Shown here: one piece after another, positions 17,028-34,788 of the stretch
Layout of the letters: the number at the start of each line of letters is the position of its first letter
How positions within the stretch are numbered: position 1 is the first letter of the stretch
Assembly: GCF_005885635.1 (NCBI RefSeq)
Contig: NZ_VATY01000001.1
Span: forward strand, 868,001 to 932,000
From: Maribacter algarum (ex Zhang et al. 2020)
GTDB lineage: Bacteria; Bacteroidota; Bacteroidia; Flavobacteriales; Flavobacteriaceae
Length of the DNA stretch: 64,000 nucleotides
Reading direction: 5' to 3'
Program-made: the position numbers and the translations under genes
The notes under the pieces: model-generated
Told to the model about the DNA's origin: nothing
Seen by the model: the letters and a program-made list of their open reading frames with translations, nothing else
Database searches by the model: none

Positions 17028-17032
17028 CAACC

Positions 17033-20803: not shown

Positions 20804-21733
20804 ATGCAAATAACAGGAACCTTTCTAGACGAAATCAGCCACGATATACCACATCAAAATTGGGGTGCCAAAGAGTGGGATGCCGATTTTGCCCACATGA
20901 AAAAGATGGGTATCGATACCGTAATTTTGATTCGTTCCGGATATCAAAGGTTTCTGACGTACCCCTCGTTGTATTTGTTAAATCAACAAGGTTGTTTTGA
21001 ACCTCCTGTTGACTTGGTGAAGCTCTATCTAGAATTGTCAAACAAATATGGTATGACATTCTATTTCGGCACATATGATAGTGGTAAATATTGGGAGACA
21101 GGAGATATGCGGCATGAAATCGATGTCAATCTTCATGTTATTGAAGAGGTTTACAAAATCTATGGTCATTACAAGAGTTTTGGCGGATGGTATTTAAGCT
21201 TGGAGTTAAGTAGAAAGACCAAATGGGCAATAGATTCCATCACCAAATTAGGGAATCAGTGCAAAGCTGTCAGTGATGGCTTGCCCGTTCTAATTTCCCC
21301 ATGGATAGATGGGAAAAAAGCCGTTTTGGCTTCTACAAATCAAGTCACAAAAGATGCATCGGTCTCGCTAAATGAACACGAAAAAGAATGGAATGAGATT
21401 TTTGATGGCATCAAAGAAAGCGTAGATATGGTCGCCTTTCAAGATGGTCATGTGGCTTATGGAGATTTAGAAGATTATCTGAGATTGAACAAAGCCTTAG
21501 CAGATACACATGGACTCATATCTTGGACAAATTCCGAATCGTTTGACCGCGACATGCCGATAAAATTTCTTCCCATTAAATGGGAAAAACTATTGTTCAA
21601 ACTTGAGGCTGCTAAACGTGCAGGTTGTGAAAAGGCGATTACGTTTGAATTTTCACATTTTATGAGTCCACTGTCGGCTTATCCGCAGGCAGGACATTTG
21701 TACAATAGATATATGGAGCACTTTTCAAAATGA
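20804..21733 (+). CDS. DUF4434 TIM-barrel protein
   Basis: The 309-residue protein matches DUF4434, a glycoside-hydrolase-like TIM barrel of Bacteroidota: the ITGTFLDEI start, the W-D-x-D-F-A-H-M-K-K-M-G-I-D-T-V strand and helix, and GWYLSLELSRK. Candidate acidic residues sit at barrel-strand ends, but no catalytic pair is established for this family. There is no signal peptide, so it acts in the cytosol, on whatever the upstream symporter brings in. Its start directly follows the symporter stop, and its end overlaps the epimerase start by four bases (ATGA). Confidence 0.75.
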   Translation: MQITGTFLDEISHDIPHQNWGAKEWDADFAHMKKMGIDTVILIRSGYQRFLTYPSLYLLNQQGCFEPPVDLVKLYLELSNKYGMTFYFGTYDSGKYWETGDMRHEIDVNLHVIEEVYKIYGHYKSFGGWYLSLELSRKTKWAIDSITKLGNQCKAVSDGLPVLISPWIDGKKAVLASTNQVTKDASVSLNEHEKEWNEIFDGIKESVDMVAFQDGHVAYGDLEDYLRLNKALADTHGLISWTNSESFDRDMPIKFLPIKWEKLLFKLEAAKRAGCEKAITFEFSHFMSPLSAYPQAGHLYNRYMEHFSK

Positions 21734-22893
21734 AAAAATACGCTGAAATATACGGAAACGAATTGCTCAATGAGGTCATTCCCTTTTGGGAAAAATATTC
21801 CCTAGACAAAGAATATGGTGGCTATTTTACATGTCTTACTGAAAAGGGTGAAATTTATGATACCGATAAGTTTATTTGGTTGCAAGCACGACAAACATGG
21901 CTCTTCTCATTGCTATACCAATTGGTACAAAAAAAAGAAAGTTGGAAAAAAATAGCTTTATTGGGCGCAGATTTTTTAAAAAAGTATGGCCGAGATACAA
22001 ATGGAGACTGGTACTTTTCTTTAAACCAACAAGGACAACCTTTAGTACAACCGTATAACATTTTTTCGGACTGTTTTGCAGCCATGGCCTTTGGGAAACT
22101 AAATGAAATTGATCCGAAAAGTGAGTATGCAGAAATTGCAAAATCCACTTTTGAAAATATTCTGAGAAGGCAGAACAATCCGAAAGGGAAGTACAACAAA
22201 GTGTATCCCAAAAGTCGAAATCTTCAAAACTTCGCACTACCCATGATTCTTTGTAATCTTTCTTTGGAATTGGAACCCTTATTAGGTTCTGAAAGGGTTT
22301 CCGAGGTAACCGACTCCGTTATAGATTTGGTCATGAATACCTTTTACGATAAGAAAAGTGGACTCGTTTTAGAAAATGTTTCTGCCCAAGGGGAATTCGT
22401 TGATAATTTTGAAGGTCGTTTGTTAAATCCGGGTCATGCTATCGAAGCCATGTGGTTTATTATGAATCTGGGTATTCGAAAAAATGATTCTGAATTAGTT
22501 GAAAAAGCAGAAAAAATCATGTTTCAACAATTGGATCACGGTTGGGACGAAAAATACGGAGGTATCTTCTATTTCATGGATATCAAGGGTCATCCCCCAC
22601 AACAACTAGAACATGACCAGAAACTCTGGTGGGTGCATTTGGAAACTCTTGTAGCTCTGGCTAAGATTTACGCATACAACCAAAATCCCAAAGCAGCAGA
22701 GTGGTTTAAAATAGTACACGACTACTCGTGGAATCACTTTCGAGACAAAGCAAACGGTGGCGAATGGTACGGATATCTCAATCGGCAAGGAGAGGTCAGT
22801 TTGAACCTCAAAGGAGGTAAATGGAAAGGTTGTTTTCATGTTCCAAGAGCATTGTTGGAAGTTTGGAAAACACTCGAAAAAACAGAAAGATGA
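21730..22893 (+). CDS. AGE-family sugar 2-epimerase
   Basis: The 387-residue cytosolic protein has the alpha/alpha-barrel features of N-acylglucosamine 2-epimerase (AGE/RenBP). The two catalytic-type histidines are visible: H236 in NPGHAIEAMWF and H370 in KGCFHVPRALLEVW. The conserved HDQKLWWVHLE block lies between them. AGE enzymes interconvert GlcNAc and ManNAc; relatives epimerise mannose, cellobiose or mannobiose, and the sequence does not settle which. It overlaps both neighbours by four bases, a tightly coupled operon with SSS, DUF4434 and the FAD oxidoreductase. Confidence 0.88.
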   Translation: MKKYAEIYGNELLNEVIPFWEKYSLDKEYGGYFTCLTEKGEIYDTDKFIWLQARQTWLFSLLYQLVQKKESWKKIALLGADFLKKYGRDTNGDWYFSLNQQGQPLVQPYNIFSDCFAAMAFGKLNEIDPKSEYAEIAKSTFENILRRQNNPKGKYNKVYPKSRNLQNFALPMILCNLSLELEPLLGSERVSEVTDSVIDLVMNTFYDKKSGLVLENVSAQGEFVDNFEGRLLNPGHAIEAMWFIMNLGIRKNDSELVEKAEKIMFQQLDHGWDEKYGGIFYFMDIKGHPPQQLEHDQKLWWVHLETLVALAKIYAYNQNPKAAEWFKIVHDYSWNHFRDKANGGEWYGYLNRQGEVSLNLKGGKWKGCFHVPRALLEVWKTLEKTER

Positions 22894-24746
22894 AAAAGCT
22901 ATATTTCTCTTTTCTCACTCTTTTGATAATCTATACTGTTTCGGCTCAGAAGGAAGTAGACATTTTGATTATTGGAGGTGGTGCTGGCGGAACCTCAGCT
23001 GGCATTCAATCAGCGCGAATGGGCGCCAAGGTTCAAATCATAGAGGCTACGCCATGGCTCGGTGGAATGTTGACTTCAGCCGGAGTATCAGCAATAGATG
23101 GCAACCATGAAATGCCATCTGGAATTTGGGGAGAGTTTCGCCAAAAACTGCGAGACCATTATGGCGATGCAGAAGCTTTGGCCACAGGTTGGGTGAGTCA
23201 TACGCTGTTTGAACCTTCTGTAGGCAATCAAATACTTCAGGAAATGGCTACCATTCCCAATCTGGACATTGCTTTTAATGCCATGTATACAAATATAGAT
23301 AACGACGGAGACGGTTGGTCCGTTACCTACAAACAAAAGGGAAAGACCTATACTACCAGAGCAAAACTTCTAATGGATGCAACGGAAATCGGAGAATTGC
23401 TTCCCCTTGTTGGAGCTGATTTTCGTCTCGGGATGGATTCCCAATCAGATACTGGCGAAAAAGAAGCTCCGGAGACTGGGAATTCCATAGTTCAAGACTT
23501 GACTTATGTACTAATCCTAAAAGATGTTTCAGGAGATTCCCGCCTTCGCGGGAATGACAAAAAGGGTTTGGTGAAAAAACCTAAGAATTACGACCCTAAA
23601 GCTTATGAATGTGCTTGTAAAAGAGAAAACGGGGAAATGTTTAATGCAGTTTCCAATTGTCAGCAAATGCTGAATTATGGTAAACTACCCAACAACAAGT
23701 ACATGATGAATTGGCCCAATTGCGGCAATGATTTTTATCTGAATTGGCCTGAACTGAATGCAAGCAAAAGAAAAGAAAAATTAAAAGAGGCCAAAGCCTT
23801 TACACAAGGATTCGTCTATTATATTCAAAACGAACTCGGGTTCAAAAACCTAAGGGTAGCCGAGGAGTTTCCGACCAAAGATAATTTTCCGATGATTCCC
23901 TATGACCGTGAAGCACGAAGAATTAAGGGCAAAACATTTTTGACCGTAGACCATCTCGAAAAACCTTATGATTTCGACCTCTATAAAACAGGAGTCGCAG
24001 TAGGAGATTATCCCATCGACCACCACCACGATAAAAATCCTGATGCGCCTGAAATCGAATTTATAAATATCAAGGTACCAAGTTACAATATACCTCTCGG
24101 GAGTTTGATTCCGGAAAAAGTAGAAAATTTCATAGTTGCTGAAAAAAATATCAGTGTATCGAATATCGTAAACGGAGCCACCAGACTTCAGCCAGTAGTA
24201 TTAGGTATTGGTCAAGCTGCAGGCACTTTGGCAGCAATGTCCGTAAAAGAAGATAAAAAACCCTCTGAAGTTTCTGTTCGTAAAGTTCAAAACGCGTTGC
24301 TTGAAAGCAATGCGTATTTGATGCCCTTTATCGATGTTAAAAAAGAGGATGACGGTTTTGCAGAAATGCAGCGTATCGGGGCGGCTGGAGTGTTAAAAGG
24401 TTTTGGGGTTCCCTATAAATGGGCCAATCAAACTTGGTTTTATCCAGAACGAATCGTTTCGGAATATGAATGGAAATCAGGGATGTTACCCTATTATCCT
24501 GAACTTGAAAAAATTCCTGCCTCAGGTAAGGCGATTACGCTTGAATTTCTTCATGCCGTAATGAACGAATTAGACGGGTTTGCTTCCTATTCAGGACTTG
24601 TTAAAGATTGGTTTGATTTTTACAAAACAAAACCCTTTGATGTAAAAGCTCCACTAAATCGGAGAAAGGTGAGTATTATCACGGATCAAATCTTTAATCC
24701 GTTTTCTATGGAAATTGATTTTGAAGGAAACCTCAAGACAGACTAA
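22890..24746 (+). CDS. Exported FAD-dependent oxidoreductase (PF12831 type)
   Basis: The ATG at 22890 is chosen (four-base overlap with the epimerase stop). It gives 618 residues with a signal peptide ending TVSAQ; an ATG at 22821 lies inside the epimerase and is rejected. The FAD motif GGGAGGTSAGIQSARMG follows immediately, then the GGMLTSAGVSAIDG block and the FIVAEKNISVS...GATRLQP block typical of FAD_oxidored proteins. Residues 213-225 (SGDSRLRGND) derive from a palindromic repeat inserted in frame. It probably oxidises a sugar or glycoside outside the cytoplasm. Relatives are often misnamed xanthan lyase. Its stop overlaps that of the convergent TRAP gene. Confidence 0.85.
   Translation: MKKLYFSFLTLLIIYTVSAQKEVDILIIGGGAGGTSAGIQSARMGAKVQIIEATPWLGGMLTSAGVSAIDGNHEMPSGIWGEFRQKLRDHYGDAEALATGWVSHTLFEPSVGNQILQEMATIPNLDIAFNAMYTNIDNDGDGWSVTYKQKGKTYTTRAKLLMDATEIGELLPLVGADFRLGMDSQSDTGEKEAPETGNSIVQDLTYVLILKDVSGDSRLRGNDKKGLVKKPKNYDPKAYECACKRENGEMFNAVSNCQQMLNYGKLPNNKYMMNWPNCGNDFYLNWPELNASKRKEKLKEAKAFTQGFVYYIQNELGFKNLRVAEEFPTKDNFPMIPYDREARRIKGKTFLTVDHLEKPYDFDLYKTGVAVGDYPIDHHHDKNPDAPEIEFINIKVPSYNIPLGSLIPEKVENFIVAEKNISVSNIVNGATRLQPVVLGIGQAAGTLAAMSVKEDKKPSEVSVRKVQNALLESNAYLMPFIDVKKEDDGFAEMQRIGAAGVLKGFGVPYKWANQTWFYPERIVSEYEWKSGMLPYYPELEKIPASGKAITLEFLHAVMNELDGFASYSGLVKDWFDFYKTKPFDVKAPLNRRKVSIITDQIFNPFSMEIDFEGNLKTD
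23536..23555 (+). repeat. dRS3-like palindromic repeat, copy 1 (intragenic)
   Basis: ATTCCCGC and GCGGGAAT form a perfect eight-pair stem around CTTC, with G before and GACA after. It lies in frame inside the FAD oxidoreductase gene and encodes the SGDSRLRGND peptide. Confidence 0.85.
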
Positions 24747-26017
24747 TCCGTGAACAAACCAGGAAGCCAAAGCGATATTTCAGGAATTAAAGTAACTAAA
24801 ACCAATACTCCCAAACTCACCAATAAAAATGGAAAGCCAGCTTTACTAACCTTTCCAATGGAAACTTTTCCGATACTTGATGCCACGAAAAGGCAAACTC
24901 CAACTGGTGGTGTTGTTAGACCTATAATCAAGTTCAATACAGCAATTACAGCGAAATGAATAGGGTCAACATCTACAGCAATTGCAACTTTCAATAAAAT
25001 TGGAAACAGAATTAGTAATGCAGCAATGGTTTCCATAAAAGTGCCGACAGCTATTAGTAACAGATTAATCAACAAAAGAACGACATACTTGTTAGAGCTA
25101 AAACCCAGTATCTCACTGGATATCGTTTGTGGAATATGTTCTGTAATTAAAATATATCCAAATAAATTCGCGAAGCCGACCAAAACCATTAATGATGCGG
25201 AAGTCTTCATCGAATCGAGAATCACAACCTGCACATTCTTAAAGTTCAACTTTTTATAAACGAAACGACCCACTACCAAAGCATACAAAACTGCCACAAT
25301 CGAAGCTTCCGTTGGGGTAAAGATGCCCCCAATAATTCCGAAGAGAATGATAAAGGTCATTAATAATGACCAGAATGTATCTACAAAACCGCGAGCAACC
25401 TGGCCAAAACTGCTTTTGGGATGCTTGGGATAATTCTTTTTTCGAGCAATGAAATAGGCCACGACCATCAAGCCAACTCCCAATAACAATCCTGGAATGG
25501 CTCCCGCCAAGAATAACTTCCCAACGGAAAGTCCGCTTAAAGTAGCCGCAATAATCATGGGCACACTAGGTGGAATAATTGGCCCAACCGTTGAGGATGC
25601 CGCGGTTACGGCACATGAAAAATCTGCATCGTAGCCTTCCTTTTTCATTGCCGGAATCATCACCGAACCCATACTTGCCGTATCGGAAATTGCGGTGCCC
25701 GAAATACCTGCGAACAACATTGAGGCTCCAATATTCACTAGCGAAAGTCCACCTCGAATATGACCCATCAAATGATTGCAGAACGAGATTATCTTTTCAG
25801 TCAACCCACCCTGATTCATAAGATTTCCGGCGATTATAAATCCCGGTATACTCAATAGTACAAAAACATCAATGCCCGAATACATTTTCATAGGCATCAA
25901 AATTAACGGAATTCCAGCACCGATTAAATAAACCAAGCATGCCAGCCCTAAAGCAAAAGCTATGGGATACCGAAGTACGAGGGCAACTACGAATACAATT
26001 ACGAGAATCCAAATCAT
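24743..26017 (-). CDS. dctM: TRAP transporter large permease (DctM)
   Basis: The 424-residue protein has about twelve hydrophobic segments and the DctM family hallmarks: the GGLTEKIISFCNHLMGHIRGGLSLVNI-type helical block, SGTAISDTASMGSVMIPAMK, and TVGPIIPPSVPMIIAA. It is the sodium-coupled membrane subunit of a tripartite ATP-independent transporter for small organic acids. It overlaps the small permease gene by four bases. It is the last gene of the minus-strand operon, and its stop overlaps the convergent FAD oxidoreductase stop. The neighbouring enzymes suggest a sugar-acid-derived substrate. Confidence 0.95.
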   Translation of the reverse strand: MIWILVIVFVVALVLRYPIAFALGLACLVYLIGAGIPLILMPMKMYSGIDVFVLLSIPGFIIAGNLMNQGGLTEKIISFCNHLMGHIRGGLSLVNIGASMLFAGISGTAISDTASMGSVMIPAMKKEGYDADFSCAVTAASSTVGPIIPPSVPMIIAATLSGLSVGKLFLAGAIPGLLLGVGLMVVAYFIARKKNYPKHPKSSFGQVARGFVDTFWSLLMTFIILFGIIGGIFTPTEASIVAVLYALVVGRFVYKKLNFKNVQVVILDSMKTSASLMVLVGFANLFGYILITEHIPQTISSEILGFSSNKYVVLLLINLLLIAVGTFMETIAALLILFPILLKVAIAVDVDPIHFAVIAVLNLIIGLTTPPVGVCLFVASSIGKVSIGKVSKAGFPFLLVSLGVLVLVTLIPEISLWLPGLFTD

Positions 26018-26478
26018 GTGCTTTTCCTTTTAAAAGCTTTTACAATTTTATGCCAGGCATAGTAACACAAGGTTGACCCAATGATGAACATACTAAAAAA
26101 TGACACACCCATATTGAATCCCATACTTGGTGATTTTTCTATCATTCCTAAGCTTACGAATTGTATTGAATAGAAAGCGAAAACAGCAAATAATAGGAAT
26201 ATAACTATAGGAATAGATTTATCTAGGAAAGTCTTGAGTTTTGGACTAAACCTATTGTAGAAGGCATCAAGGGCTACATAATAGTTTGATGACTTTAGGG
26301 CGAGTCCGGAAGCAAAGGAAATGGCATAAATAAAAAGTATACGCGATGCTTCCTCCGTCCACGAAGGCGTTTCAAACCAAGAAAAGCGACAGATAATCTG
26401 AAGCAAAACCATGGCAATCAAGCCCCAAGTACTGACAAGGGTACCAACCTTAAGAATTTTACCTATTGCTTTTCGCAT
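26014..26478 (-). CDS. dctQ: TRAP transporter small permease (DctQ)
   Basis: The 154-residue protein has four hydrophobic segments and the DctQ-typical motif W-T-E-E-A-S-R-I-L-F-I-Y after the second segment. It forms the membrane complex with DctM. Its start lies 20 bases inside the end of the binding-protein gene, and its stop overlaps the DctM start, so the three subunits are translationally coupled. Confidence 0.93.
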   Translation of the reverse strand: MRKAIGKILKVGTLVSTWGLIAMVLLQIICRFSWFETPSWTEEASRILFIYAISFASGLALKSSNYYVALDAFYNRFSPKLKTFLDKSIPIVIFLLFAVFAFYSIQFVSLGMIEKSPSMGFNMGVSFFSMFIIGSTLCYYAWHKIVKAFKRKST

Positions 26479-27496
26479 GTGCTTCTTGTTCGCGTTTCAA
26501 TTCGTGATATATTTCTTGCATCTCGGGGGATAAACTATCATATATGGCTTGCTCGCACTTCTTGGCAAATGCTTCGGTATCCACTTCTATCAATTCCATG
26601 CCTTTGTCCTTCAAGACTTGCTGTATTTTTTTTTCGTTTTCCAAAAAAAGGTCATGCTCATACTTCTGCATTTCCCTACCAGCTTGAATAACAAGTTCTT
26701 GAAGGTCAGGAGGTAATTTCTGAAACTGCTTTTCACCAATTACAGCATAGACCCAACTTATCACATGCCCTGTGAGATTTACATATTTCTGTACCTCAGC
26801 AAAACCCCCATTATTAATCATGGCAAAGGGATTTTCCTGTCCTTGAATAGTTCCCTGCTGTAAAGAGGTGAAAACTTCGGAAAATGCCATAGGCGTTGGT
26901 TTTGCACCCAGCGCACTCCATGTAGTAACAAAGGAGGGAACATTGGGAACCCGCAAAATCATTCCATTTAGGTCATCAGGATGTCGAATTGGTCTATTGG
27001 AAGTCAAATGCCTCGGTCCACGTTCAAAATGACACAAGGCCCGGACTCCTGCTTTCTCAATCATTTCCGTCTCCATCAATTTACCCACGCGACCATTGAT
27101 ATATAGGTTCATATCGGTGGAATCTTTCATCAAATAGGGAAGCTCACAAAAGGTGGCTACCTCAAACCAATTTGTCAAGGTGGAACCGGTGGTGGTTATA
27201 TCAATAACCTCAGCTTGAATCAAGCGAATCGCTTCAATCTCCTTCGCCAACTGTTCCGAAGGGTACAATTGAACTTCGATACGTCCCTTGGAGCGTTCTT
27301 CTAAAATTTGTTTGAAATAGTCAAAGGCTTTATACCAAGTATGGTCTTCCTTGACAATAATTGCTGTTCGAAATAAGAATTCAGGTTGGTTGGCCTCAGG
27401 TTTACAACCTATAAAAAGTAGTAGCACAAAAGCCGTACTGCAAAAAGTAAGCAGTAGACTCCTTCGATTCTTTTTTATTGGGACTTTTCCATCCAT
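26459..27496 (-). CDS. dctP: TRAP transporter substrate-binding protein (DctP), probable lipoprotein
   Basis: The start at 27496 (MDGKVPIKK) is chosen because it lies just after the stop of the upstream RidA gene; an ATG at 27517 would overlap that gene. The 345-residue protein has a signal sequence ending LFIGC, likely a lipid-anchored form. Family features include the YPSEQLAKEIEAIRLIQAEVID segment, LRVPNVPSF with the carboxylate-binding arginine, and the QGQENPFAMINN block. The arginine implies a carboxylate ligand, so an acid such as a keto-acid or sugar acid is expected. Confidence 0.93.
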   Translation of the reverse strand: MDGKVPIKKNRRSLLLTFCSTAFVLLLFIGCKPEANQPEFLFRTAIIVKEDHTWYKAFDYFKQILEERSKGRIEVQLYPSEQLAKEIEAIRLIQAEVIDITTTGSTLTNWFEVATFCELPYLMKDSTDMNLYINGRVGKLMETEMIEKAGVRALCHFERGPRHLTSNRPIRHPDDLNGMILRVPNVPSFVTTWSALGAKPTPMAFSEVFTSLQQGTIQGQENPFAMINNGGFAEVQKYVNLTGHVISWVYAVIGEKQFQKLPPDLQELVIQAGREMQKYEHDLFLENEKKIQQVLKDKGMELIEVDTEAFAKKCEQAIYDSLSPEMQEIYHELKREQEAHAKSNR

Positions 27497-27497
27497 C

Positions 27498-28073
27498 CTA
27501 TTCGTAAACCTCAACAATCATTTCGACTTCAATAGCAATGTTGCTTGGAAGTGCCCCCATTCCAACGGCGGCTCTGGCATGTTTTCCCTTATCCCCAAAA
27601 ACGGCCACCATCAAATCGGAATACCCATTAACCACTTTGGGTTGGTCTGTGAAATCGGGCATGGAATTCACCATTCCTTTTACCTTGACAATACGTTTCA
27701 CCTTATTTAGATTGCCCAACTCGGCCTTCAAGACAGAAAGTTGATTGATTCCCGTAATGCGAGCTGCTTCATATCCCTCTTCAATGGTCAGGTCGGCACC
27801 TAACTTGCCCGTAATATTTTCGCCATCTGCTTTTCGGGGTCCTTTACCAGCTAGAAAAATCAAATTCCCTGTTCGGACCGCATTTACATAATTAGCGACA
27901 GGAGCCGAAGGAGTACTTAATTCAATACCTAGTTCTTGAAGTTTAGCCTCCGGATTGTAATTTGGGTCAATGGCTTCTTGAACTTCTTCGGTTACTTTTT
28001 CTTCTTTAACTTCCTTGACTTGATTACATGAAAAAGCAAGTAAAAGAGCAAGGCATAAATAGATTTTATTCAT
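27498..28073 (-). CDS. Lipid-anchored RidA-family protein
   Basis: The 191-residue protein has a signal peptide with lipobox AFSC (cysteine 16), a glutamate/lysine-rich linker of about 30 residues, and a full RidA (YjgF) domain from about residue 45. The domain keeps the active-site arginine in ARAAVGMGALP and the N-V-E-type end strand IAIEVEMIVEVYE. RidA proteins hydrolyse reactive enamine/imine intermediates released by PLP-dependent lyases. Export of a RidA protein is unusual. It lies in an operon with an exported PLP lyase-like protein, which gives it an obvious possible job. Confidence 0.88.
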   Translation of the reverse strand: MNKIYLCLALLLAFSCNQVKEVKEEKVTEEVQEAIDPNYNPEAKLQELGIELSTPSAPVANYVNAVRTGNLIFLAGKGPRKADGENITGKLGADLTIEEGYEAARITGINQLSVLKAELGNLNKVKRIVKVKGMVNSMPDFTDQPKVVNGYSDLMVAVFGDKGKHARAAVGMGALPSNIAIEVEMIVEVYE

Positions 28074-28099
28074 AATATTTGCGTTTGGTTATTGACAAT

Positions 28100-29317
28100 T
28101 TAGACGTTTTCAAGAACTTCCTTTACACGTTGCGCAACAATTCGTTCTTGACCGAGTTCCATCATCCAAGTGGTAATCCCTACTTGTTCTTTGTTTCCGA
28201 CCGTTTCTATGGATGGATGTCCATCCCGTAATCGTTTACGCATTTCGTCTGTGGATATACCCACTTCCTTTTCATCCCATCTAATATACAAACTAGGAAC
28301 ATGATTCGCATGTGGAGGCACATGAATTTCGGTTTTAACTCCTTTTACAGAAAGTGCGCTGTCGCTGATTAATTTGATTTGACTTTCCCAAAGTTCCCAT
28401 TCCTTTTGGTGATCTCTAGAAAGATAAAGCTCCAAGGCTACCATCATGCCCAGGACTTCTTCCTTATTTACTTTCATCCCACGTGCAATAGTGGTTCCCC
28501 TTGGTGGAGTGTGTAATCTTGCGGCTTCAATGTATTCTCTTTTTCCTAATAGCAAACCGGCACTCTGGGGACCTCGAATTCCTTTTCCTCCTGAAAAACA
28601 AACCAAATCAAAGCCTAACTTCGTAAACTTAAAAAGGTTTTCTACCGGAGGGACGTCAGCAGCACAATCGATAAATGTCGGAACATTAAGTTTTTTTCCC
28701 AAGGCAACGAATTCCTCCCATTTGATTTCACCATTATCCGTATTGGCATTTAAAAACCAAAGCATGGCTGTTTTATCATTTACGGCCTTTTCCAGTTCTT
28801 TTGCAGTTTCGATTTCCACAATATTCGCCCCCGTATTTATAAGTGCATGGGTATACCCGATGGAATGTCCTTTTTGAACAATGACCTCATCTTTTAATCC
28901 AGTAGTATCAGGAAGCTGAGCGACCTTTTTTTCATCCATTCCACACATAATCCCTGCGAGACCAATAGTCATTGCTCCAAAAGCACCTGATGTTACGGTG
29001 GCATATTCGCAATCCAGCAACTCTGCAATTCGCTCACCTACCTTGTCATGAAGCTCATCTAAATTGACATATTCGGTTGCACCGTAGCTAATGGCATCGG
29101 TTACTTCTTTGTGCATGAGAGAACCCGTCATTGAAGTGTAAGTCCCCGCTGCATTGATAAAAGTGCGCAGACCCAATTCTTTGAAAAAATCCCGGCCAGC
29201 CTGTTCTAGGAATACTTCCTCAGATGCCTTTGCGGTCAATAGACTTGGCCCGAACATTCCCCCAACAAGGGGAAGCGTCGATACTATTTTTAATGCTTTT
29301 CTTCTACTAGTGCCCAT
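28100..29317 (-). CDS. Exported SelA-like PLP enzyme (D-glucosaminate ammonia-lyase type)
   Basis: The start at 29317 gives a 405-residue protein beginning MGTSRRKALKIV, a Tat-like twin-arginine signal. An ATG at 29338 lies inside a palindromic repeat and is rejected. The fold is aminotransferase-class V/SelA-like, with PLP-binding D218 in FIDCAADVPP and the Schiff-base lysine K245 in FSGGKGIRGPQSAG. Closest recognisable families are the DgaE/EF_0838-type enzymes that eliminate ammonia from D-glucosaminate derivatives, not tRNA-dependent SelA. Tat export would allow the folded, cofactor-loaded enzyme to reach the periplasm. Neighbours are two exported RidA proteins and an RraA-like aldolase. 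Confidence 0.82.
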   Translation of the reverse strand: MGTSRRKALKIVSTLPLVGGMFGPSLLTAKASEEVFLEQAGRDFFKELGLRTFINAAGTYTSMTGSLMHKEVTDAISYGATEYVNLDELHDKVGERIAELLDCEYATVTSGAFGAMTIGLAGIMCGMDEKKVAQLPDTTGLKDEVIVQKGHSIGYTHALINTGANIVEIETAKELEKAVNDKTAMLWFLNANTDNGEIKWEEFVALGKKLNVPTFIDCAADVPPVENLFKFTKLGFDLVCFSGGKGIRGPQSAGLLLGKREYIEAARLHTPPRGTTIARGMKVNKEEVLGMMVALELYLSRDHQKEWELWESQIKLISDSALSVKGVKTEIHVPPHANHVPSLYIRWDEKEVGISTDEMRKRLRDGHPSIETVGNKEQVGITTWMMELGQERIVAQRVKEVLENV

Positions 29318-29336
29318 AATTAAATGTTTTATTGTC

Positions 29337-29356
29337 ATTCCCGTGAAGACGGGAAT
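29337..29356 (-). repeat. dRS3-like palindromic repeat, copy 2
   Basis: Read on the minus strand, ATTCCCGT and ACGGGAAT flank CTTC, with G before and GACA after. It lies between the SelA-like gene and the second RidA gene. The stem differs from copy 1 by a compensated base pair. Confidence 0.85.
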
Positions 29357-29371
29357 CTGTTTACCGTTATA

Positions 29372-29857
29372 TTAATCAACCGCTGCAATACAGTCCATTT
29401 CTACCAGTGATTTCCCTGGAACTCCACCATAGGTAGCCACTGTTGTTCGTACTGGCGGATTTTTTCCAAAACGTCCACGAAATACTTCGTTCATTCCTTT
29501 GTAATCGGCAAGGTCAGCTAGGTATACATTTACCTTCAGAACCTGTTCCATAGAAGAACCGTTTGCTTCCAATCCTTTTTGAAGTTCCTGTAAAACAATT
29601 TCAGTGTGTGCTTTGATTTCGTAGGGTTCTACATGTGCTCCTTTTCCAGCAATGTAAAGTGTATTACCATGTTTTACTGCTCCTGAGAAAAGAGGAATAT
29701 CTTGATCCATTACGATATCGCTAGCTTCTTTTATTGGGGTTTTTGATTTATTCTTAGTCATCGCATTGGCCGAACCAATTCCGAACAATGCCGCTATACC
29801 CATTCCTATTTTTTTGAAGGATGCCCTTCTTGTTGTTTTGTTTTCCATATTGTTCAT
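29372..29857 (-). CDS. Exported RidA-family protein, Tat-like signal
   Basis: The 161-residue protein starts with MENKTTRRASFKKIGMGIAA (from the fourth residue), a twin-arginine-type signal ending near ANAM. The mature part is a RidA domain with GNTLYIAGKGAH, the long helix VLQELQKGLEANGSSMEQVLKV and the C-terminal RTTVATYGGVPGKSLVEMDCIA. The active-site arginine sits in VRTTV. It is a second, divergent RidA paralogue in the same operon, on the other side of the SelA-like gene. Either ATG (29857 or 29848) is possible. Confidence 0.87.
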   Translation of the reverse strand: MNNMENKTTRRASFKKIGMGIAALFGIGSANAMTKNKSKTPIKEASDIVMDQDIPLFSGAVKHGNTLYIAGKGAHVEPYEIKAHTEIVLQELQKGLEANGSSMEQVLKVNVYLADLADYKGMNEVFRGRFGKNPPVRTTVATYGGVPGKSLVEMDCIAAVD

Positions 29858-29870
29858 TTTCTAAGTTGTT

Positions 29871-30788
29871 TTACCACATTCGTTTTTTAAGAAGTTCTTG
29901 TATTTGTGCTTTCGGAACAGGAAGATCATCGATATGGTCATTCAGCCATTTTGAAAAATCTTTTTCGATTTCCTCTGACCATTTATTATCAATTTGCCCT
30001 GGAGTATATTTTCCCTCCTTTAAGCGAGTTATACCAAATAAATCACGTAAACGGACAACCTCTGAGGTCACCACCACTTTTTCCGCCAAATGAGCGGGGA
30101 TGAACATAACGCCTTCTTTCTTCCCTAAAATAATATCCCCAGGCAGAACGGTCGCGGCTCCAATACGAATAGGCGAATTAATACTTAACAACATCACTTC
30201 CGTCAAAAATGATGGATGCCATTCCCTTACGAATACATTGAAACCTTCAATTTCCGAAAGCCCCTCTTGATCCCTACTAGAGGCATTAAAAACCACGCCT
30301 GTTTTTGATTTGGCATAAATTGCATTTCCTAAATTGTCACCTATCAAAGTGCCGTCTACAATTTTCCCAAAGCCGTCAGCTACATATACATCTCCCATTT
30401 GAAGCATGTCGATTGGCCAGGAGTTTGTATTTCCAATTTGGCCATCGGCCTTACCCTTCTTTTTAATTTGGTCTGATACATCGGGGCGATTAGGCATATA
30501 TTGAACGGTAAGTGCACGACCAACTACGGGAACGTCATCATGTAAGGGTTCCCAACCCCCTTCAAATTGATTGTGATATCCTTCGTTTCTTAAAACGCCC
30601 CAAGCTTCCTCAATGGCAACTTCTTTCATTCGTTCCAAAATATCGTCAGCTACTTTGGGCCTTCCATCTTCAAAACGTTCTCCCTCCCATTGGGGTGTTA
30701 AAAAAATAATTTGTTCTTTGGATGCGGTTTGAGAGGCTGCAAAATTGCATCCAACAAAAAACAATACCATCAAATTAATAAATCGCAT
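29871..30788 (-). CDS. Exported RraA-like protein (HMG/CHA-aldolase superfamily)
   Basis: The 305-residue protein has a signal sequence (residues 1-20) and a RraA-like fold. The metal/substrate motif is reduced to GDNLGNAIYAKSK followed by NASSRD, where the arginine-aspartate pair of 4-hydroxy-4-methyl-2-oxoglutarate aldolases is kept. The strand-turn GDIILGKKEGVMFIP is also typical. Cytosolic relatives cleave or decarboxylate 2-keto acids, giving pyruvate; true RraA inhibitors of RNase E lack the R-D pair. Export is unusual. In this operon it could cleave a keto-deoxy sugar acid. The reaction is inferred. Confidence 0.8.
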   Translation of the reverse strand: MRFINLMVLFFVGCNFAASQTASKEQIIFLTPQWEGERFEDGRPKVADDILERMKEVAIEEAWGVLRNEGYHNQFEGGWEPLHDDVPVVGRALTVQYMPNRPDVSDQIKKKGKADGQIGNTNSWPIDMLQMGDVYVADGFGKIVDGTLIGDNLGNAIYAKSKTGVVFNASSRDQEGLSEIEGFNVFVREWHPSFLTEVMLLSINSPIRIGAATVLPGDIILGKKEGVMFIPAHLAEKVVVTSEVVRLRDLFGITRLKEGKYTPGQIDNKWSEEIEKDFSKWLNDHIDDLPVPKAQIQELLKKRMW

Positions 30789-30811
30789 AGGTTCTCTTTT
30801 TTTATTTTATT

Positions 30812-32062
30812 CTATTTATCCCATGATTCGGAGGCCAATCCATTTAAATCATAGACCACTTTTCCATCTCGAATGGTGAGTTCGCATTCCAGTTTTTTAT
30901 TCCCTTTCATTCGTTTTCCCTTTGTATCGATAAAGCCAAAATCACCCGCTCTTTGATTCAAGATAGTTATGTCGGCAACAGCCCCTACTGACAAATGCCC
31001 TAAATCTTCCCGTTTGATAATCTTTGCAGAATTCCATGTTGTGGCAGCAAGTACTTCGTTAAGCGGCATATTCAGATTTAGAAATTTTGACATCACATTG
31101 ATAATATCTTTCATGCCGCCATTCATACTTCCTGTATGAAGGTCGGTACTTATTGAATTCGGTTTGAACCCTTGTTTCATTGCAGGAACAACTTGTTCAA
31201 AAAGAAAGCTTCCCCCACCGTGACCTACGTCGAAAATAATTCCTCTTTTTTGGGCGGCCCATGCAAAATCCTCTACTTTACCTTGCTCATTTACAATAGG
31301 GGTTCGTCCATTTACATGTGCATATGCGTGTGTAAAAATATCACCAGGACGAAGCTTTTCCATAAATAATGTTTGAAGGGATAGTTCAGGCTCACTCCCT
31401 CCAAAGTCAACCATGATAGGTATATCCGCCAATTTACCGGCCTCAACGGCCCTTTCGGTCGGAGTCCAATCAAAACCACTAAAGTGCGCCAATTTGACCC
31501 CAACTATATGTTCGGGAAATTGCTTGGCCACCATCGCAGTGAGTTTAGGGTCCATGTCGGCAATATTCTGTTCAATCGCGCCTCCTTTCATTCCAGAACC
31601 GATAATATTCAAAAAAGAAAGTACTCTGGTTTTGGACCGATCAATGACATTTTCTTTGAATGTTCTAAAATTGCGCCAACCGGCACCCCCAACATCGACA
31701 ATTGTTGTTACTCCACTTCGAAAACTGAATCCATCAGGTGGAAGGGCCGTAAAACTATTGCTCAAGTACGCATTCGGTTCAGTCCCAAAAAAGTTATGGC
31801 TATGAATATCCAATAACCCAGGTGATACAAACAAGCCCTTTGCATCAATCACTTTAGAGGCCTTCGAAGCAGGTATAGCTGTTTCTACTTGTGCAATTTT
31901 TCCATCCTTTATCGCAACATCGATGACTTTGTCGATTCCATTCTTGGCATCTATGACATGTCCGTTCTTGATGAGAATATCAAACTCCTGCGCATTCAAA
32001 AAACAGGAAAAAAGCAATGCTATCATTAAAAACCAACTGGTAAATCTATTTTTGTTTTCCAT
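30812..32062 (-). CDS. Exported amidohydrolase/deacetylase (EF_0837-like)
   Basis: The 416-residue metalloenzyme has a signal peptide ending CFLNAQ (about residue 24). The amidohydrolase motifs are complete. HxH is in LLDIHSHNFFG, the carboxylated-type lysine in GVKLAHFSGF, histidines in HAYAHVNG and DVGHGGGSF, and the late aspartate in STDLHTGSMNGG. This group, annotated as amidohydrolase/deacetylase, is often found beside SelA-like ammonia-lyases, exactly as here. It probably removes an N-acyl group from an amino sugar or amino acid in the periplasm. Substrate inferred. Confidence 0.87.
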   Translation of the reverse strand: MENKNRFTSWFLMIALLFSCFLNAQEFDILIKNGHVIDAKNGIDKVIDVAIKDGKIAQVETAIPASKASKVIDAKGLFVSPGLLDIHSHNFFGTEPNAYLSNSFTALPPDGFSFRSGVTTIVDVGGAGWRNFRTFKENVIDRSKTRVLSFLNIIGSGMKGGAIEQNIADMDPKLTAMVAKQFPEHIVGVKLAHFSGFDWTPTERAVEAGKLADIPIMVDFGGSEPELSLQTLFMEKLRPGDIFTHAYAHVNGRTPIVNEQGKVEDFAWAAQKRGIIFDVGHGGGSFLFEQVVPAMKQGFKPNSISTDLHTGSMNGGMKDIINVMSKFLNLNMPLNEVLAATTWNSAKIIKREDLGHLSVGAVADITILNQRAGDFGFIDTKGKRMKGNKKLECELTIRDGKVVYDLNGLASESWDK

Positions 32063-32083
32063 ATTTTATCCCATTAAATACAA

Positions 32084-33838
32084 TTATTCTCCTACCGTCA
32101 CGGGGATTTCGGTATTCTTTTCTTCTAGGTCACTTCTTCGACTGGCAACCTCATCGCTTTTGATGGCACTCGCATCATTTCCAAAATTAGCGCGTATAAA
32201 AGTCAACACATCCGCGATTTCAGTATCGCTTAAAAAACTATGCTGTGGCATTACTCCGTTGTAGGTCTCTTCATTGATTTGCATTTCACCTTCCATACCT
32301 TCTAAAATAATGTCAATCAATCGTTCTTTATCACCACTAACCCAATCGGTATTTGTCAAAGGCGGGAATCTTCCTGTAGCTCCCCCTCCATCTTTTTGAT
32401 GACAGTTCGCGCAATATGTATTGTAAACAACTTCGCCTGGTGAATTTGCTTCTTGTGCTAAATCATCTTTTACTTTATCAGGAGTACGCACGTGAGTTTC
32501 CAATTTCCGCTGCTCCATTTGTGCAAGTTGTGCTTCCCCAAAATTATTTTTATCTCCATCAAAGGTGATTTTCCAAATTCTACCCTTAACAGAATCCGAA
32601 ATGTACATAGCTCCATCTTTGTCGAAAGCGATTCCCATCGGTCTTAACTTGGCGTCTTTTACACTTTCAATGGGGTCAACTCCCGCGAAACCATCGGCAA
32701 AAACTTCCCAATCACCGCTGGGGTTTCCATCTTTAAAAGGAACAAAGGCAACAATATAACCTGACTGCGGATATGGCGCACGATTCGTAGACCCATGAAA
32801 GGCGATAAAAGCACCATGCTTATAGCGTTCGGGAAACTGGTCTCCCTCATAAAATACCAAATCATTTGGTGCCCAATGCCCTGGAAAACCAATTAGCGGG
32901 TCATCAAATTCAGCGCATCGACCAATTATATCGCCATCGCCCCCATATTCGGGAGCCAAGACTTTTTTGCCCTTGATTTGATCATAGTAACAATAGGGCC
33001 ATCCAAAGTCAGAACCTTCGGTTACTCGTATAAATTCCTCAGAAGGCAAAAGAGCACTTTCCCAAGGACTGAATCTATCAGGAAACAATCGCAATAAATC
33101 ATCGCGACCGTGCATTGCGATATACAGGTTTTCATCAACAGGGTTCCAATCCATGGCCACTACTGAACGGATTCCTGTGGCATATTTATACCCATCCTTT
33201 TGGGTCTGTCCTAGGGTATTCGCATCGAAGCGCCAAACGCCACCATGATGTTCAAGTTGAGGGCAAGGGTCCATACCAGGGGCCCCTGGAGTTCTTTTCG
33301 GGTCTTGACAAGCATTTGACGGAGCACCAAAAGGCACATATAAGTTTCCTTTATTATCAAAGGCGATAGGCTTACCGATATGCTCATGCTTACCATGTTC
33401 ATGGTCGTCGGTTACAACAACTTCCATCTCGCCATCTGGGACCATACTTCCAGGTTTTAGCTTGTAACGATAGACTACGAGTTCTGAACTAAAGTACATA
33501 TAGCCATTGTAGATTCGCATGGCCGTGGCATAGCTCCATTTTTGTTTTGACCTATAGGCTCCGAATTTTTCAATATCATCTGCCCTGCCATCACCATCGT
33601 TGTCCTTGAGTGCTATAATTCCAGCTTTATCATGTGACTCCCTCAACTTTCCATAGAGCACTCCGTCATCTGATATAGCCATATGACGTACACGCTCTTT
33701 TACCTCATCAACCATAATGACTGCATTGAAATTATCAGGAAGCAAAAGACCGCCATTCGGAAGTTCTGGAGAACACCCAAAAAGTAAAAAGATAACGAAG
33801 AGTATAGGGAATCTTCGCAGATAGGTTTTGGTCATCAT
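32084..33838 (-). CDS. PQQ/sorbosone-type sugar dehydrogenase fused to cytochrome c
   Basis: The 584-residue protein has a signal sequence with lipobox-like LFGC (cysteine about 22) and a six-bladed propeller of the soluble aldose/sorbosone dehydrogenase type. Propeller marks include DNDGDGRADD, YATGIRSVVAMDWNP, TEGSDFGWPYCYYDQIKG and MGIAFDKDGAMYISDS. A C-terminal cytochrome c follows, with CANCH at 476-480 and a distal methionine region (GVMPQHSFL). Such proteins oxidise the C1 hydroxyl of aldoses and pass electrons to haem. It is the first gene of the nine-gene operon; its promoter region holds a LacI-like operator. Substrate and PQQ dependence are inferred. Confidence 0.88.
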   Translation of the reverse strand: MMTKTYLRRFPILFVIFLLFGCSPELPNGGLLLPDNFNAVIMVDEVKERVRHMAISDDGVLYGKLRESHDKAGIIALKDNDGDGRADDIEKFGAYRSKQKWSYATAMRIYNGYMYFSSELVVYRYKLKPGSMVPDGEMEVVVTDDHEHGKHEHIGKPIAFDNKGNLYVPFGAPSNACQDPKRTPGAPGMDPCPQLEHHGGVWRFDANTLGQTQKDGYKYATGIRSVVAMDWNPVDENLYIAMHGRDDLLRLFPDRFSPWESALLPSEEFIRVTEGSDFGWPYCYYDQIKGKKVLAPEYGGDGDIIGRCAEFDDPLIGFPGHWAPNDLVFYEGDQFPERYKHGAFIAFHGSTNRAPYPQSGYIVAFVPFKDGNPSGDWEVFADGFAGVDPIESVKDAKLRPMGIAFDKDGAMYISDSVKGRIWKITFDGDKNNFGEAQLAQMEQRKLETHVRTPDKVKDDLAQEANSPGEVVYNTYCANCHQKDGGGATGRFPPLTNTDWVSGDKERLIDIILEGMEGEMQINEETYNGVMPQHSFLSDTEIADVLTFIRANFGNDASAIKSDEVASRRSDLEEKNTEIPVTVGE

Positions 33839-34059: not shown

Positions 34060-34788
34060 TTATTCGAAGACAAGTGAACCGAAATATTCAGGGCGGTGAA
34101 AATCGGGCGTTTCAGTACCAACGGCATTCCAACTTAGGTAGTGACGTTCTGAAGTCCGGTCGCCACATTTGTAAAAATTAGCTCTGGTTTTGAGTCCTTT
34201 TAGCTGAATTCCTTCATCGGCATTCAAAATGGAAGCGGGAATAATTATAGTCATCTCCCAGGAATGGCCACCCGTTCTTTCCGCAAAGGGTTCATTCCCT
34301 AATGAGGAAGTAATTTCAATATGCTCTTTTATCTTTTCCTCATCCACAAATTGGCGCGCTCTCCTTCCAGGGCCATAGGCCAAATGAGGCATTCCAATAC
34401 AGCTGAATTCAAAATTGTAATAATTGCCATCAGCTTTTGGGTCAAAAAAGAACTCAACACAACTATCACCAGCGACACCACCATTTATGGTATCGACTTG
34501 AGCGAGTATATTCTCTTCGGTTACATAATATTTTAACCAAATCTGGTTATTGGCATGTGCGATTCTGAAATCAGCCTTTGGGGTATAGGAAAAGGTATCC
34601 CAGTTGATAATATTGATGGAATGGAGTTCCGTCTGCTCCTCAAGTAGTTCAGAAACCTGAGATAGTGTTACGTTTTTATCCGTTATGATTTCCTTTACCT
34701 TCAATTCTTTCGGTGCTTCGTTTTGTGCATTGCAACTTGCAAATATTAGGAATAAGAAGAATAGCAATGACCTCCTTTTTTTCAACAT
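34060..34788 (-). CDS. CBM9-like carbohydrate-binding lipoprotein
   Basis: The 242-residue protein has a signal sequence ending FASCNAQ and a CBM9-like jelly roll. Signs of the family are W-L-K-Y-Y-V at the first strand, SCVEFFFDPKADGNYYNFEF, and the late block WEMTIIIPASIL and RANFYKCGD. Family-9 modules bind sugar chain ends, and stand-alone versions occur in Bacteroidota carbohydrate clusters. It is transcribed separately, divergent from the PSCyt gene, with the operator-containing spacer on its 3' side. Confidence 0.82.
   Translation of the reverse strand: MLKKRRSLLFFLFLIFASCNAQNEAPKELKVKEIITDKNVTLSQVSELLEEQTELHSINIINWDTFSYTPKADFRIAHANNQIWLKYYVTEENILAQVDTINGGVAGDSCVEFFFDPKADGNYYNFEFSCIGMPHLAYGPGRRARQFVDEEKIKEHIEITSSLGNEPFAERTGGHSWEMTIIIPASILNADEGIQLKGLKTRANFYKCGDRTSERHYLSWNAVGTETPDFHRPEYFGSLVFE

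Follow-up and report, generated by a model that had tools for sequence, protein, structure and literature searches.

A conserved, export-tagged gene cluster of marine flavobacteria that may break down an N-acetylated amino sugar outside the cytoplasm

The ong pathway of Pseudoalteromonas prydzensis converts N-acetylglucosaminate (GlcNAc1A) to glucosaminate (GlcN1A) and then to 2-keto-3-deoxygluconate (KDG), as shown by assay and deletion; deleting its RidA gene abolished growth on GlcNAc1A, although that paper assigns RidA no role (PMC9537276). A structure of its deacetylase, OngB, is described in PMC12017989. For haloarchaea of the genus Natrarchaeobius, a route from N-acetylglucosamine (GlcNAc) through glucosaminate to 2-keto-3-deoxy-6-phosphogluconate (KDPG) is predicted in PMC12343721. 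Here we examine a gene cluster of Maribacter algarum (assembly GCF_005885635.1, contig NZ_VATY01000001.1, positions 868,001 to 932,000), using positions within that 64,000-nucleotide stretch, which we call the window. The ong pathway is the closest precedent for this cluster and was not named in the first-pass annotation of the DNA.

Nine open reading frames (ORFs) on the minus strand, from 24743 to 33838, comprise six enzyme genes followed by the DctP, DctQ and DctM genes of a tripartite ATP-independent periplasmic (TRAP) transporter, with no intergenic distance above 33 bp. In transcription order the gaps are 21, 23, 13, 33, 26, -20, -20 and -4 bp, so that the enzyme genes stand 13-33 bp apart, while the second RidA gene and the TRAP genes overlap slightly from each to the next, both 20-bp overlaps hinging on the start codons chosen. 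The ORFs, their gaps and their families, which were assigned by Pfam and NCBIfam profile scores, bear out the nine tightly spaced same-strand genes first annotated here. A tenth, CBM9-like gene lies 221 bp upstream of the dehydrogenase gene. The genes are as follows, in transcription order.

34060..34788, minus strand: CBM9_2 (PF16011) sugar-binding protein, lipoprotein-like, whose gene probably opens the cluster (Pfam, 212 bits)
32084..33838, minus strand: glucose/sorbosone dehydrogenase (GSDH)-type domain with a fused cytochrome c, lipobox Cys22, putative oxidase of aldose C1 (Pfam/NCBIfam)
30812..32062, minus strand: amidohydrolase/deacetylase (NF006689; cog3964-like) with export signal, proposed N-acetyl-aldonate deacetylase (NF006689)
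29871..30788, minus strand: RraA-like protein with export signal, proposed aldolase (Pfam)
29372..29857, minus strand: RidA family protein 1, twin-arginine translocation (Tat) signal (Pfam)
28100..29338, minus strand: SelA/DgaE-like fold-type I pyridoxal 5'-phosphate (PLP) enzyme, Tat signal, PLP lysine K252, proposed aminohexonate ammonia-lyase (Pfam/NCBIfam, structure matches)
27498..28073, minus strand: RidA family protein 2 (PF14588), lipoprotein, Cys16 (Pfam)
26459..27517, minus strand: TRAP DctP solute-binding protein, lipobox Cys38 (Pfam/NCBIfam)
26014..26478, minus strand: TRAP DctQ small membrane subunit (Pfam)
24743..26017, minus strand: TRAP DctM large membrane subunit (Pfam/NCBIfam)

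What the sequence shows is the gene content, the conservation of export signals and of catalytic residues, and the recurrence of the parts; from these we infer the individual reactions, the substrate and the transported molecule. On balance we lean, if only slightly, towards an extracytoplasmic catabolic cluster in which an N-acetylated aldose would be oxidised, deacetylated and deaminated outside, and a 2-keto-3-deoxy acid or its cleavage product would be imported. The GSDH-cytochrome c lipoprotein would oxidise C1 of the free N-acetylated aldose and pass electrons to the respiratory chain, and the lactone would then open, with a gluconolactonase in some relatives and otherwise spontaneously. 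The amidohydrolase would remove acetate, the Tat-exported SelA-like enzyme would remove the 3-hydroxyl as water to give the enamine of a 2-keto-3-deoxy acid, and the two exported RidA proteins would hydrolyse this enamine to the keto acid and ammonia. The acid would be imported by TRAP in this genome, or by an SBF/BASS symporter in many relatives, unless RraA cut it first. The substrate would be an N-acetylhexosamine, in either the gluco or the galacto form.

An alignment of ten SelA-like proteins, run against the GTDB species genomes, found at least 439 relatives. The 80 loci on which the counts below rest are the best 80 of these by similarity, so that near kin are over-represented; up to 10 kb was taken on each side, many stretches being shorter and many contigs cut, and in 35 of the 80, the uncut runs, the contig end was not reached. 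All but two (78/80) are titled Bacteroidota of some kind, mostly Flavobacteriaceae. Clustering of neighbours gave 90 families with at least two members, 14 of them present in at least ten loci, and the first eight families are the core genes plus one more, an SBF symporter (PF01758 in a representative). Neighbouring the SelA-like gene are the amidohydrolase in 70 loci, the first RidA in 66, the dehydrogenase in 61, the second RidA in 54, RraA in 48, SBF in 44 and the CBM9-like gene in 41, with DctP, DctQ and DctM in eight each. A RidA gene is present in 78 of the 80, and none was found in L078 or L087. The SBF gene follows the amidohydrolase gene and precedes RraA where RraA exists; RraA accompanies SBF in 42 of 44 loci, but TRAP in only four of eight. 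A gluconolactonase (PF08450 in a representative) occurs in 17 loci, always directly beside the CBM9, dehydrogenase or amidohydrolase gene, a PIG-L deacetylase in five, and a sulfatase (PF00884) in 16, adjoining a core gene in only four. The 35 uncut runs hold the amidohydrolase in 34, the first RidA in 32, the dehydrogenase in 31, the second RidA in 29, and RraA and CBM9 in 27 each; SBF is in 26, TRAP in five, and one or both in 30.

A wider draw of 296 Bacteroidota genomes yielded a SelA-like gene at E 1e-30 or better in seven, Maribacter algarum included. Within 20 kb around the gene, five of the six others (L124-L128) hold many of the parts reordered and some duplicated: amidohydrolase, dehydrogenase, first RidA and lactonase in all five, the second RidA in four, and RraA and SBF in two each. 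The sixth (L129) has the usual gene order without the dehydrogenase. Outside Bacteroidota, a Granulicella plasmid (Acidobacteriota) carries in one run RraA, SelA-like, RidA, a second and longer SelA-like, amidohydrolase and lactonase genes. Retention of the set through such reshuffling is evidence that its genes function jointly. Gene order in other marine Bacteroidota had been singled out in the first-pass annotation, and here the cluster did turn out to be conserved, whereas TRAP genes accompany it in few relatives and the order varies in L124-L128. The loci repeatedly bring together genes for oxidation (dehydrogenase, lactonase), for deacetylation (amidohydrolase, PIG-L) and for deamination, and the logic of oxidation, deacetylation and deamination proposed at the outset is backed by the 17 lactonase loci, the five PIG-L loci and three of the six haloarchaeal loci described below.

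In a 59-row tree, built after trimming off the signal region, the SelA-like clade including Granulicella was supported at 95/70 only, and the longer paralogues formed a separate clade. These longer paralogues (532-573 aa) have a twin-arginine N-terminus (L095:8701-10299, L013, L014 and L124:11734-13455); they adjoin the cluster in Granulicella and in Bacteroidota genome G126, lie apart from it in G249, and are possibly for another epimer. A 226-aa SelA-like ORF, also with a twin-arginine N-terminus, sits between the amidohydrolase and dehydrogenase genes at L012:1420-2100 (L125:6558-7238) and is a decaying duplicate or a frameshift. SelA-like genes were also met on contigs titled Gammaproteobacteria (L032, 78% identity to the window protein) and Verrucomicrobia (L092, 62%), the former of which may be a misbinned flavobacterial contig. 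On rhizobial plasmids, the SelA-like enzymes of L099 and L102 (about 540-560 aa) are encoded in surroundings that look biosynthetic, with phosphoenolpyruvate mutase and cytidylyltransferase, and methyltransferases and asparagine synthase, as neighbours.

An export signal had been claimed for every enzyme, and our own heuristic, used here rather than SignalP, called one on all six window enzymes: Tat on the SelA-like protein and the first RidA, and lipoprotein on the second RidA, dehydrogenase, amidohydrolase and RraA. Most relatives of the amidohydrolase and RraA are called Sec, so for these two the signal class is Sec or lipobox-like. The signals are conserved across the 80 loci, where the SelA-like rows are 75 Tat and one Sec of 81, the first RidA rows 56 Tat and seven Sec of 64, and the second RidA rows 49 lipoprotein and four Sec of 54; a signal of some class is called on 45 of 48 RraA, 68 of 74 amidohydrolase and 55 of 66 dehydrogenase rows. 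At least 97% conservation is seen for R12-R13 in 81 SelA-like proteins, R10-R11 in 64 first RidA proteins, the lipobox C16 in 53 second RidA proteins and C22 in 56 dehydrogenases (rows of more than 500 aa and more than 600 bits). A twin arginine precedes the start of the conserved domain by 25 residues or more in 93/93 SelA-like rows from the Bacteroidota set, L032 and L092 included, and in none of eight rhizobial/burkholderial rows and none of four DgaE-type rows (one of the four lacking its first residues). Among six haloarchaeal rows it stands ahead of the domain in one, L121, with the ORF taken upstream of the annotated start; from the annotated start, L121 has no signal. The Granulicella calls are Tat for three proteins (RidA, the lactonase and the long SelA-like protein) and lipoprotein for the amidohydrolase. 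The Maribacter genome has one TatC over the cut-off, and the c-type haem motif CxxCH, which needs maturation outside the cytoplasm, is found in 55 of 56 dehydrogenase relatives.

The heuristic has its own error rates. Cytosolic relatives of the SelA-like, RidA and amidohydrolase proteins (from rhizobia, haloarchaea, Bartonella and others) received no call in 16 of 18 cases, the other two, both SelA-like, being false Sec calls; none was called Tat or lipoprotein. Membrane helices are labelled Sec (SBF 43/44, and 7/7 DctQ with a signal call), lipoproteins bearing twin arginines are labelled Tat (the window DctP and CBM9), and Sec is called on 1/9 and 1/4 rows of two neighbour families taken as cytosolic, the names of several such control families (GAPDH, SDR, PhyH and luciferase-like) being our own reading of their sequences. 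Shuffled SelA-like N-termini gave 24% Sec and 1.2% Tat, and shuffled N-termini of five of the six families about 10-24% Sec. Since Sec calls arise in shuffles and in membrane proteins, we place more weight on the conserved residues. By these measures the gene set is real, conserved and export-tagged, and its predicted lipoproteins would sit on either the inner or the outer membrane.

The SelA-like protein passes PF03841 (43.9 bits; gathering cut-off 22.8) and falls below both DgaE models (166.7 bits against a cut-off of 600, and 196.9 against 385.3). Its first match by sequence is the Salmonella enzyme DgaE (DGL; 7lc0; E 5.7e-37) and its second Cap15 (8t7j; E 1.5e-25). An AlphaFold2 model from 46 aligned sequences (mean predicted local distance difference test (pLDDT) score 86.0, predicted template modelling (pTM) score 0.80, with residues 1-10 and 20-46 below 50) superposes on 7lc0 with template modelling (TM) scores of 0.74/0.82. 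K252 aligns with the PLP lysine of DGL (7lc0 chain position 213; written 217 in PMC9529869). According to that paper, His163 of DGL protonates C3, the H163A variant is still active but releases the enamine, and Arg301, 332 and 346 lie near the docked phosphate (PMC9529869). In the window protein the His163 column holds N199-T200, and no histidine stands there in any of 81 rows of the 80 loci, nine of which have one at column 162 instead; these residue counts exclude rows shorter than 340 aa, L012 (226 aa) among them. Of 11 rows from the 296-genome draw, 10 lack His163; the exception is L010, whose gapped loop puts a histidine at that position. As for the arginines, the counterpart of R301 is S349 and that of R332 is V380, and R346 falls outside the alignment.

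The enzyme, first annotated as a SelA-like lyase and likened to DgaE, is not a DgaE, being below both model cut-offs and without His163 and two phosphate arginines. With those residues missing, neither its substrate nor its reaction can be read from DGL; their loss makes it plausible that the lyase acts on a non-phosphorylated substrate and releases a free enamine, with which two exported RidA proteins bearing a conserved arginine fit. We had supposed that His163 is lost where a RidA gene adjoins the lyase gene, but rejected this as a rule: eight rhizobial/burkholderial loci keep both histidines, yet RidA lies no more than 1,027 bp away, and haloarchaeal L117 and L118 have neither histidine nor, in the fetched stretch, RidA. 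DgaE-type L101, L104 and L111 keep His163, and no RidA was detected in the fetched stretch. Because the rhizobial relatives keep His163 beside RidA, the presence of RidA is no proof of free-enamine release.

Both RidA proteins exceed the PF01042 cut-off and score below that of TIGR00004, the Rid family detoxifying hydrolase (60.4 and 41.1 bits; cut-off 106.25). At least 97% of 64 first and 53 second RidA proteins keep R137 and R167, respectively, which align with an arginine of 2dyy and 3d01 that we take to correspond to R105 of RidA, the residue that binds substrate. The amidohydrolase passes NF006689 (448.5 bits; cut-off 371); its nearest solved structures are 2ogj, 8je0 and 2ics, and D-aminoacylases match it only at the N-terminus (1rjp, E 2.5e-6). 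In RraA, D151, R172 and D173 align with the aldolase 3noj, and at least 97% of 47 proteins keep them; this Asp...Arg-Asp set presumably comprises the metal- and pyruvate-binding residues of an HMG/CHA-type aldolase. RraA is below every NCBIfam cut-off, and its aldolase scores of 52.2 and 47.1 are far short.

DctP, DctQ and DctM together make a complete TRAP set, although DctQ reaches no NCBIfam model; C38 of DctP is invariant in nine aligned proteins. TRAP, first proposed as the transporter that the operon feeds, is present in only eight of 80 loci, and we reject it as an essential part in favour of a local addition. The nearest solved relatives of DctP are 4pc9/4pcd (E 5.9e-78), which we take to bind the hexonates D-mannonate and L-galactonate; a literature search gave no confirmation of these ligands. 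A structure model of DctP, built from nine similar sequences, reached a pLDDT of 42.8 and was not used, so the ligand class rests on sequence similarity to 4pc9/4pcd. That relatedness, with the ligands so assumed, suggests import of a six-carbon acid here, and SBF, found with RraA in 42 loci, may import the cleavage product instead. Five KDPG-type aldolase matches are over the cut-off in the genome, so that either the six-carbon acid or its cleavage product could join central metabolism. An Entner-Doudoroff-like route outside the cytoplasm, as first put forward, would require RraA, here putative, to act as a 2-keto-3-deoxy-acid aldolase; it is unsupported in that form, the nearest DctP relative, by its presumed ligand, pointing to a six-carbon acid. 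We accordingly hold as doubtful, though conceivable, the fuller version in which everything from free N-acetylhexosamine to pyruvate would take place outside the cytoplasm, RraA aldolase included, and SBF/BASS or TRAP would import only the acid. We are just as tentative about its corollary, an exported Entner-Doudoroff-like pathway in which a Tat-exported lyase without a DGL-type proton donor would hand free enamine to the two exported RidA proteins.

Several observations weigh against the extracytoplasmic breakdown of an oxidised amino sugar. The lyase is without His163, Arg301 and Arg332 of DGL, and the second-ranked fold match of its model is Cap15, an O2- and PLP-dependent enzyme, with TM scores (0.76/0.85) slightly above those of DGL. 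In Granulicella the short SelA-like protein, which has a twin arginine, and RraA get no signal call. The amidohydrolase relative 2ogj (Atu3266) is, we assume, an O-acetyl-(R)-mandelate esterase with weak activity on N-acetyl-D-serine. No PqqE was over the cut-off in the genome, nor in 14 control genomes, which leaves that search with no positive control; an enzyme using pyrroloquinoline quinone (PQQ) would then need imported PQQ or another cofactor. Lytic polysaccharide monooxygenases (LPMOs) of the LPMO10 family (PF03067) have no match in the genome, so LPMO10 was rejected as a source of already oxidised substrate, and with one glycoside hydrolase of family 20 (GH20) beside that absence there is no obvious feed from chitin. 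Many loci lack RraA, and the same holds for SBF and for TRAP.

The most serious competitor, though one to which we give a clearly smaller share of belief, keeps the compartment and the deamination but has the enzymes act on another N-acyl or O-acyl D-beta-hydroxy-alpha-amino acid, such as a derivative of D-serine or D-threonine or one derived from peptidoglycan, and not on an oxidised amino sugar, with the dehydrogenase acting on some other compound. The amidohydrolase is indeed nearest to what we take to be cog3964-type proteins, with the presumed activities given above for 2ogj, and OngC also deaminates D-serine and D-threonine (PMC9537276). The amidohydrolase was not found in ten of the 80 loci nor the dehydrogenase in 19, many contigs being cut. 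Yet genes for aldose oxidation keep company with the lyase gene: 31 of the 35 uncut runs include the dehydrogenase, 17 of the 80 loci the lactonase, and three of six haloarchaeal relatives a glucose 1-dehydrogenase. A lactonase would be needless for simple beta-hydroxy amino acids.

We think it improbable that the SelA-like protein works as Cap15 does, with O2 as well as PLP, and converts a beta-hydroxy-alpha-amino acid to an amide or a keto compound while RidA clears side products. Cap15 ranks second by both fold and sequence, and the proton-donor histidine of DGL is absent; DGL nevertheless ranks first by sequence, and two RidA proteins with an RraA-like protein fit an enamine and keto-acid product. 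It seems to us equally improbable that the exported enzymes serve detoxification or scavenging of oxidised amino-sugar waste, or remodelling of the cell envelope, and not growth. No SusC/SusD or glycoside hydrolase is among the genes of the window operon, which would suit such a role, as would the absence of LPMO10 from the genome, but the transporters (SBF in 44 and TRAP in eight of the 80 loci, with at least one of the two in 30 of the 35 uncut runs) and the CBM9-like binding protein fit uptake.

Around the cluster, window positions 34918-38937 hold, divergent from it, a PSD1/PSCyt1-PSCyt2 protein and a second gene, presumably DUF1501-type, a pair that we take to be planctomycete-type; the two occur in 10 and eight of the 80 loci, respectively. 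An SSS symporter, DUF4434, GlcNAc 2-epimerase-like (AGE) and FAD oxidoreductase gene converge on the TRAP genes at 18971-24746, and the AGE, DUF4434 and FAD genes also adjoin the cluster in L027-L029. Further on, at 15570-18673, lie an MBOAT acyltransferase gene and then one for a 546-aa protein without a Pfam match.

PLP lyases and RidA proteins have mostly been studied as cytosolic, and the known related pathways are intracellular. Marine flavobacteria, to judge from the genes, probably take an acetylated amino sugar apart extracytoplasmically and then take up the acid. If so, an intermediate usually seen as a cytosolic hazard would be handled outside, acetate and ammonia would be released outside the cytoplasm, and the gammaproteobacterial ong pathway would have a counterpart, assembled independently, for the use of oxidised amino sugars. 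Among the open-access papers listed, judged mostly by title and the opening of the abstract, we saw no exported version of the pathway and no RidA working outside the cytoplasmic membrane, a weak form of absence.

Among the systems compared, the Salmonella DgaABCDEF system resembles the cluster in the SelA-like fold of DgaE (DGL; 7lc0), its PLP lysine, and the proposed beta-elimination of water from a D-configured amino acid (PMC9529869). The Maribacter lyase differs in its missing His163 and phosphate arginines 301 and 332, and its cluster has no KDPG-type aldolase. Unlike the Maribacter cluster, DgaABCDEF works on a substrate phosphorylated by the phosphotransferase system (PTS), and DgaE is without an export signal.

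The haloarchaeal GlcNAc route and its plasmid relatives also place a SelA-like gene with RidA/RutC, glucose dehydrogenase and deacetylase genes: of six haloarchaeal loci read, three signal-less SelA-like clusters (L096, L103 and L119) hold RidA, glucose 1-dehydrogenase and PIG-L. Two others (L117 and L118) have the SelA-like gene beside heparinase II/III or polysaccharide lyase family 8 (PL8) genes, and L121 has neither set. Heparinase- and PL8-type lyases act on polymers that contain amino sugars, and L117 and L118 are candidates for catabolism of glycosaminoglycan amino sugars. The haloarchaeal systems differ in that the SelA-like proteins have no signal from the annotated starts, no cytochrome-linked oxidase was seen, and the pathway is a predicted one. 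Pseudomonads and acetic acid bacteria oxidise sugars at the cell surface with cytochrome-linked enzymes and import the acid, stopping at aldonic or keto-aldonic acids, whereas in the Maribacter proposal deacetylation, PLP-dependent deamination and imine hydrolysis would also be exported.

The likeness to the ong pathway lies in an N-acetylated aldonic acid that is deacetylated and then deaminated by a PLP enzyme to a 2-keto-3-deoxy acid, unphosphorylated before deamination, and in a RidA gene in the cluster, of which Maribacter has two. The differences are of compartment and of parts. OngB and OngC are predicted to be cytoplasmic, whereas the Maribacter enzymes have conserved export signals, on sequence evidence only; OngB is D-aminoacylase-like and the Maribacter amidohydrolase is NF006689; OngC is a fold-type III enzyme and the Maribacter lyase a SelA-like one of fold-type I (best matches 7lc0 and 8t7j). 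KdgK and an SSS transporter belong to the ong system, which is also associated with an LPMO; the Maribacter cluster contains none of the three, and LPMO10 is absent from the genome as well. The Maribacter cluster, its chemistry being deduced from its genes, would work like the ong pathway while not being a member of it, with different enzyme families.

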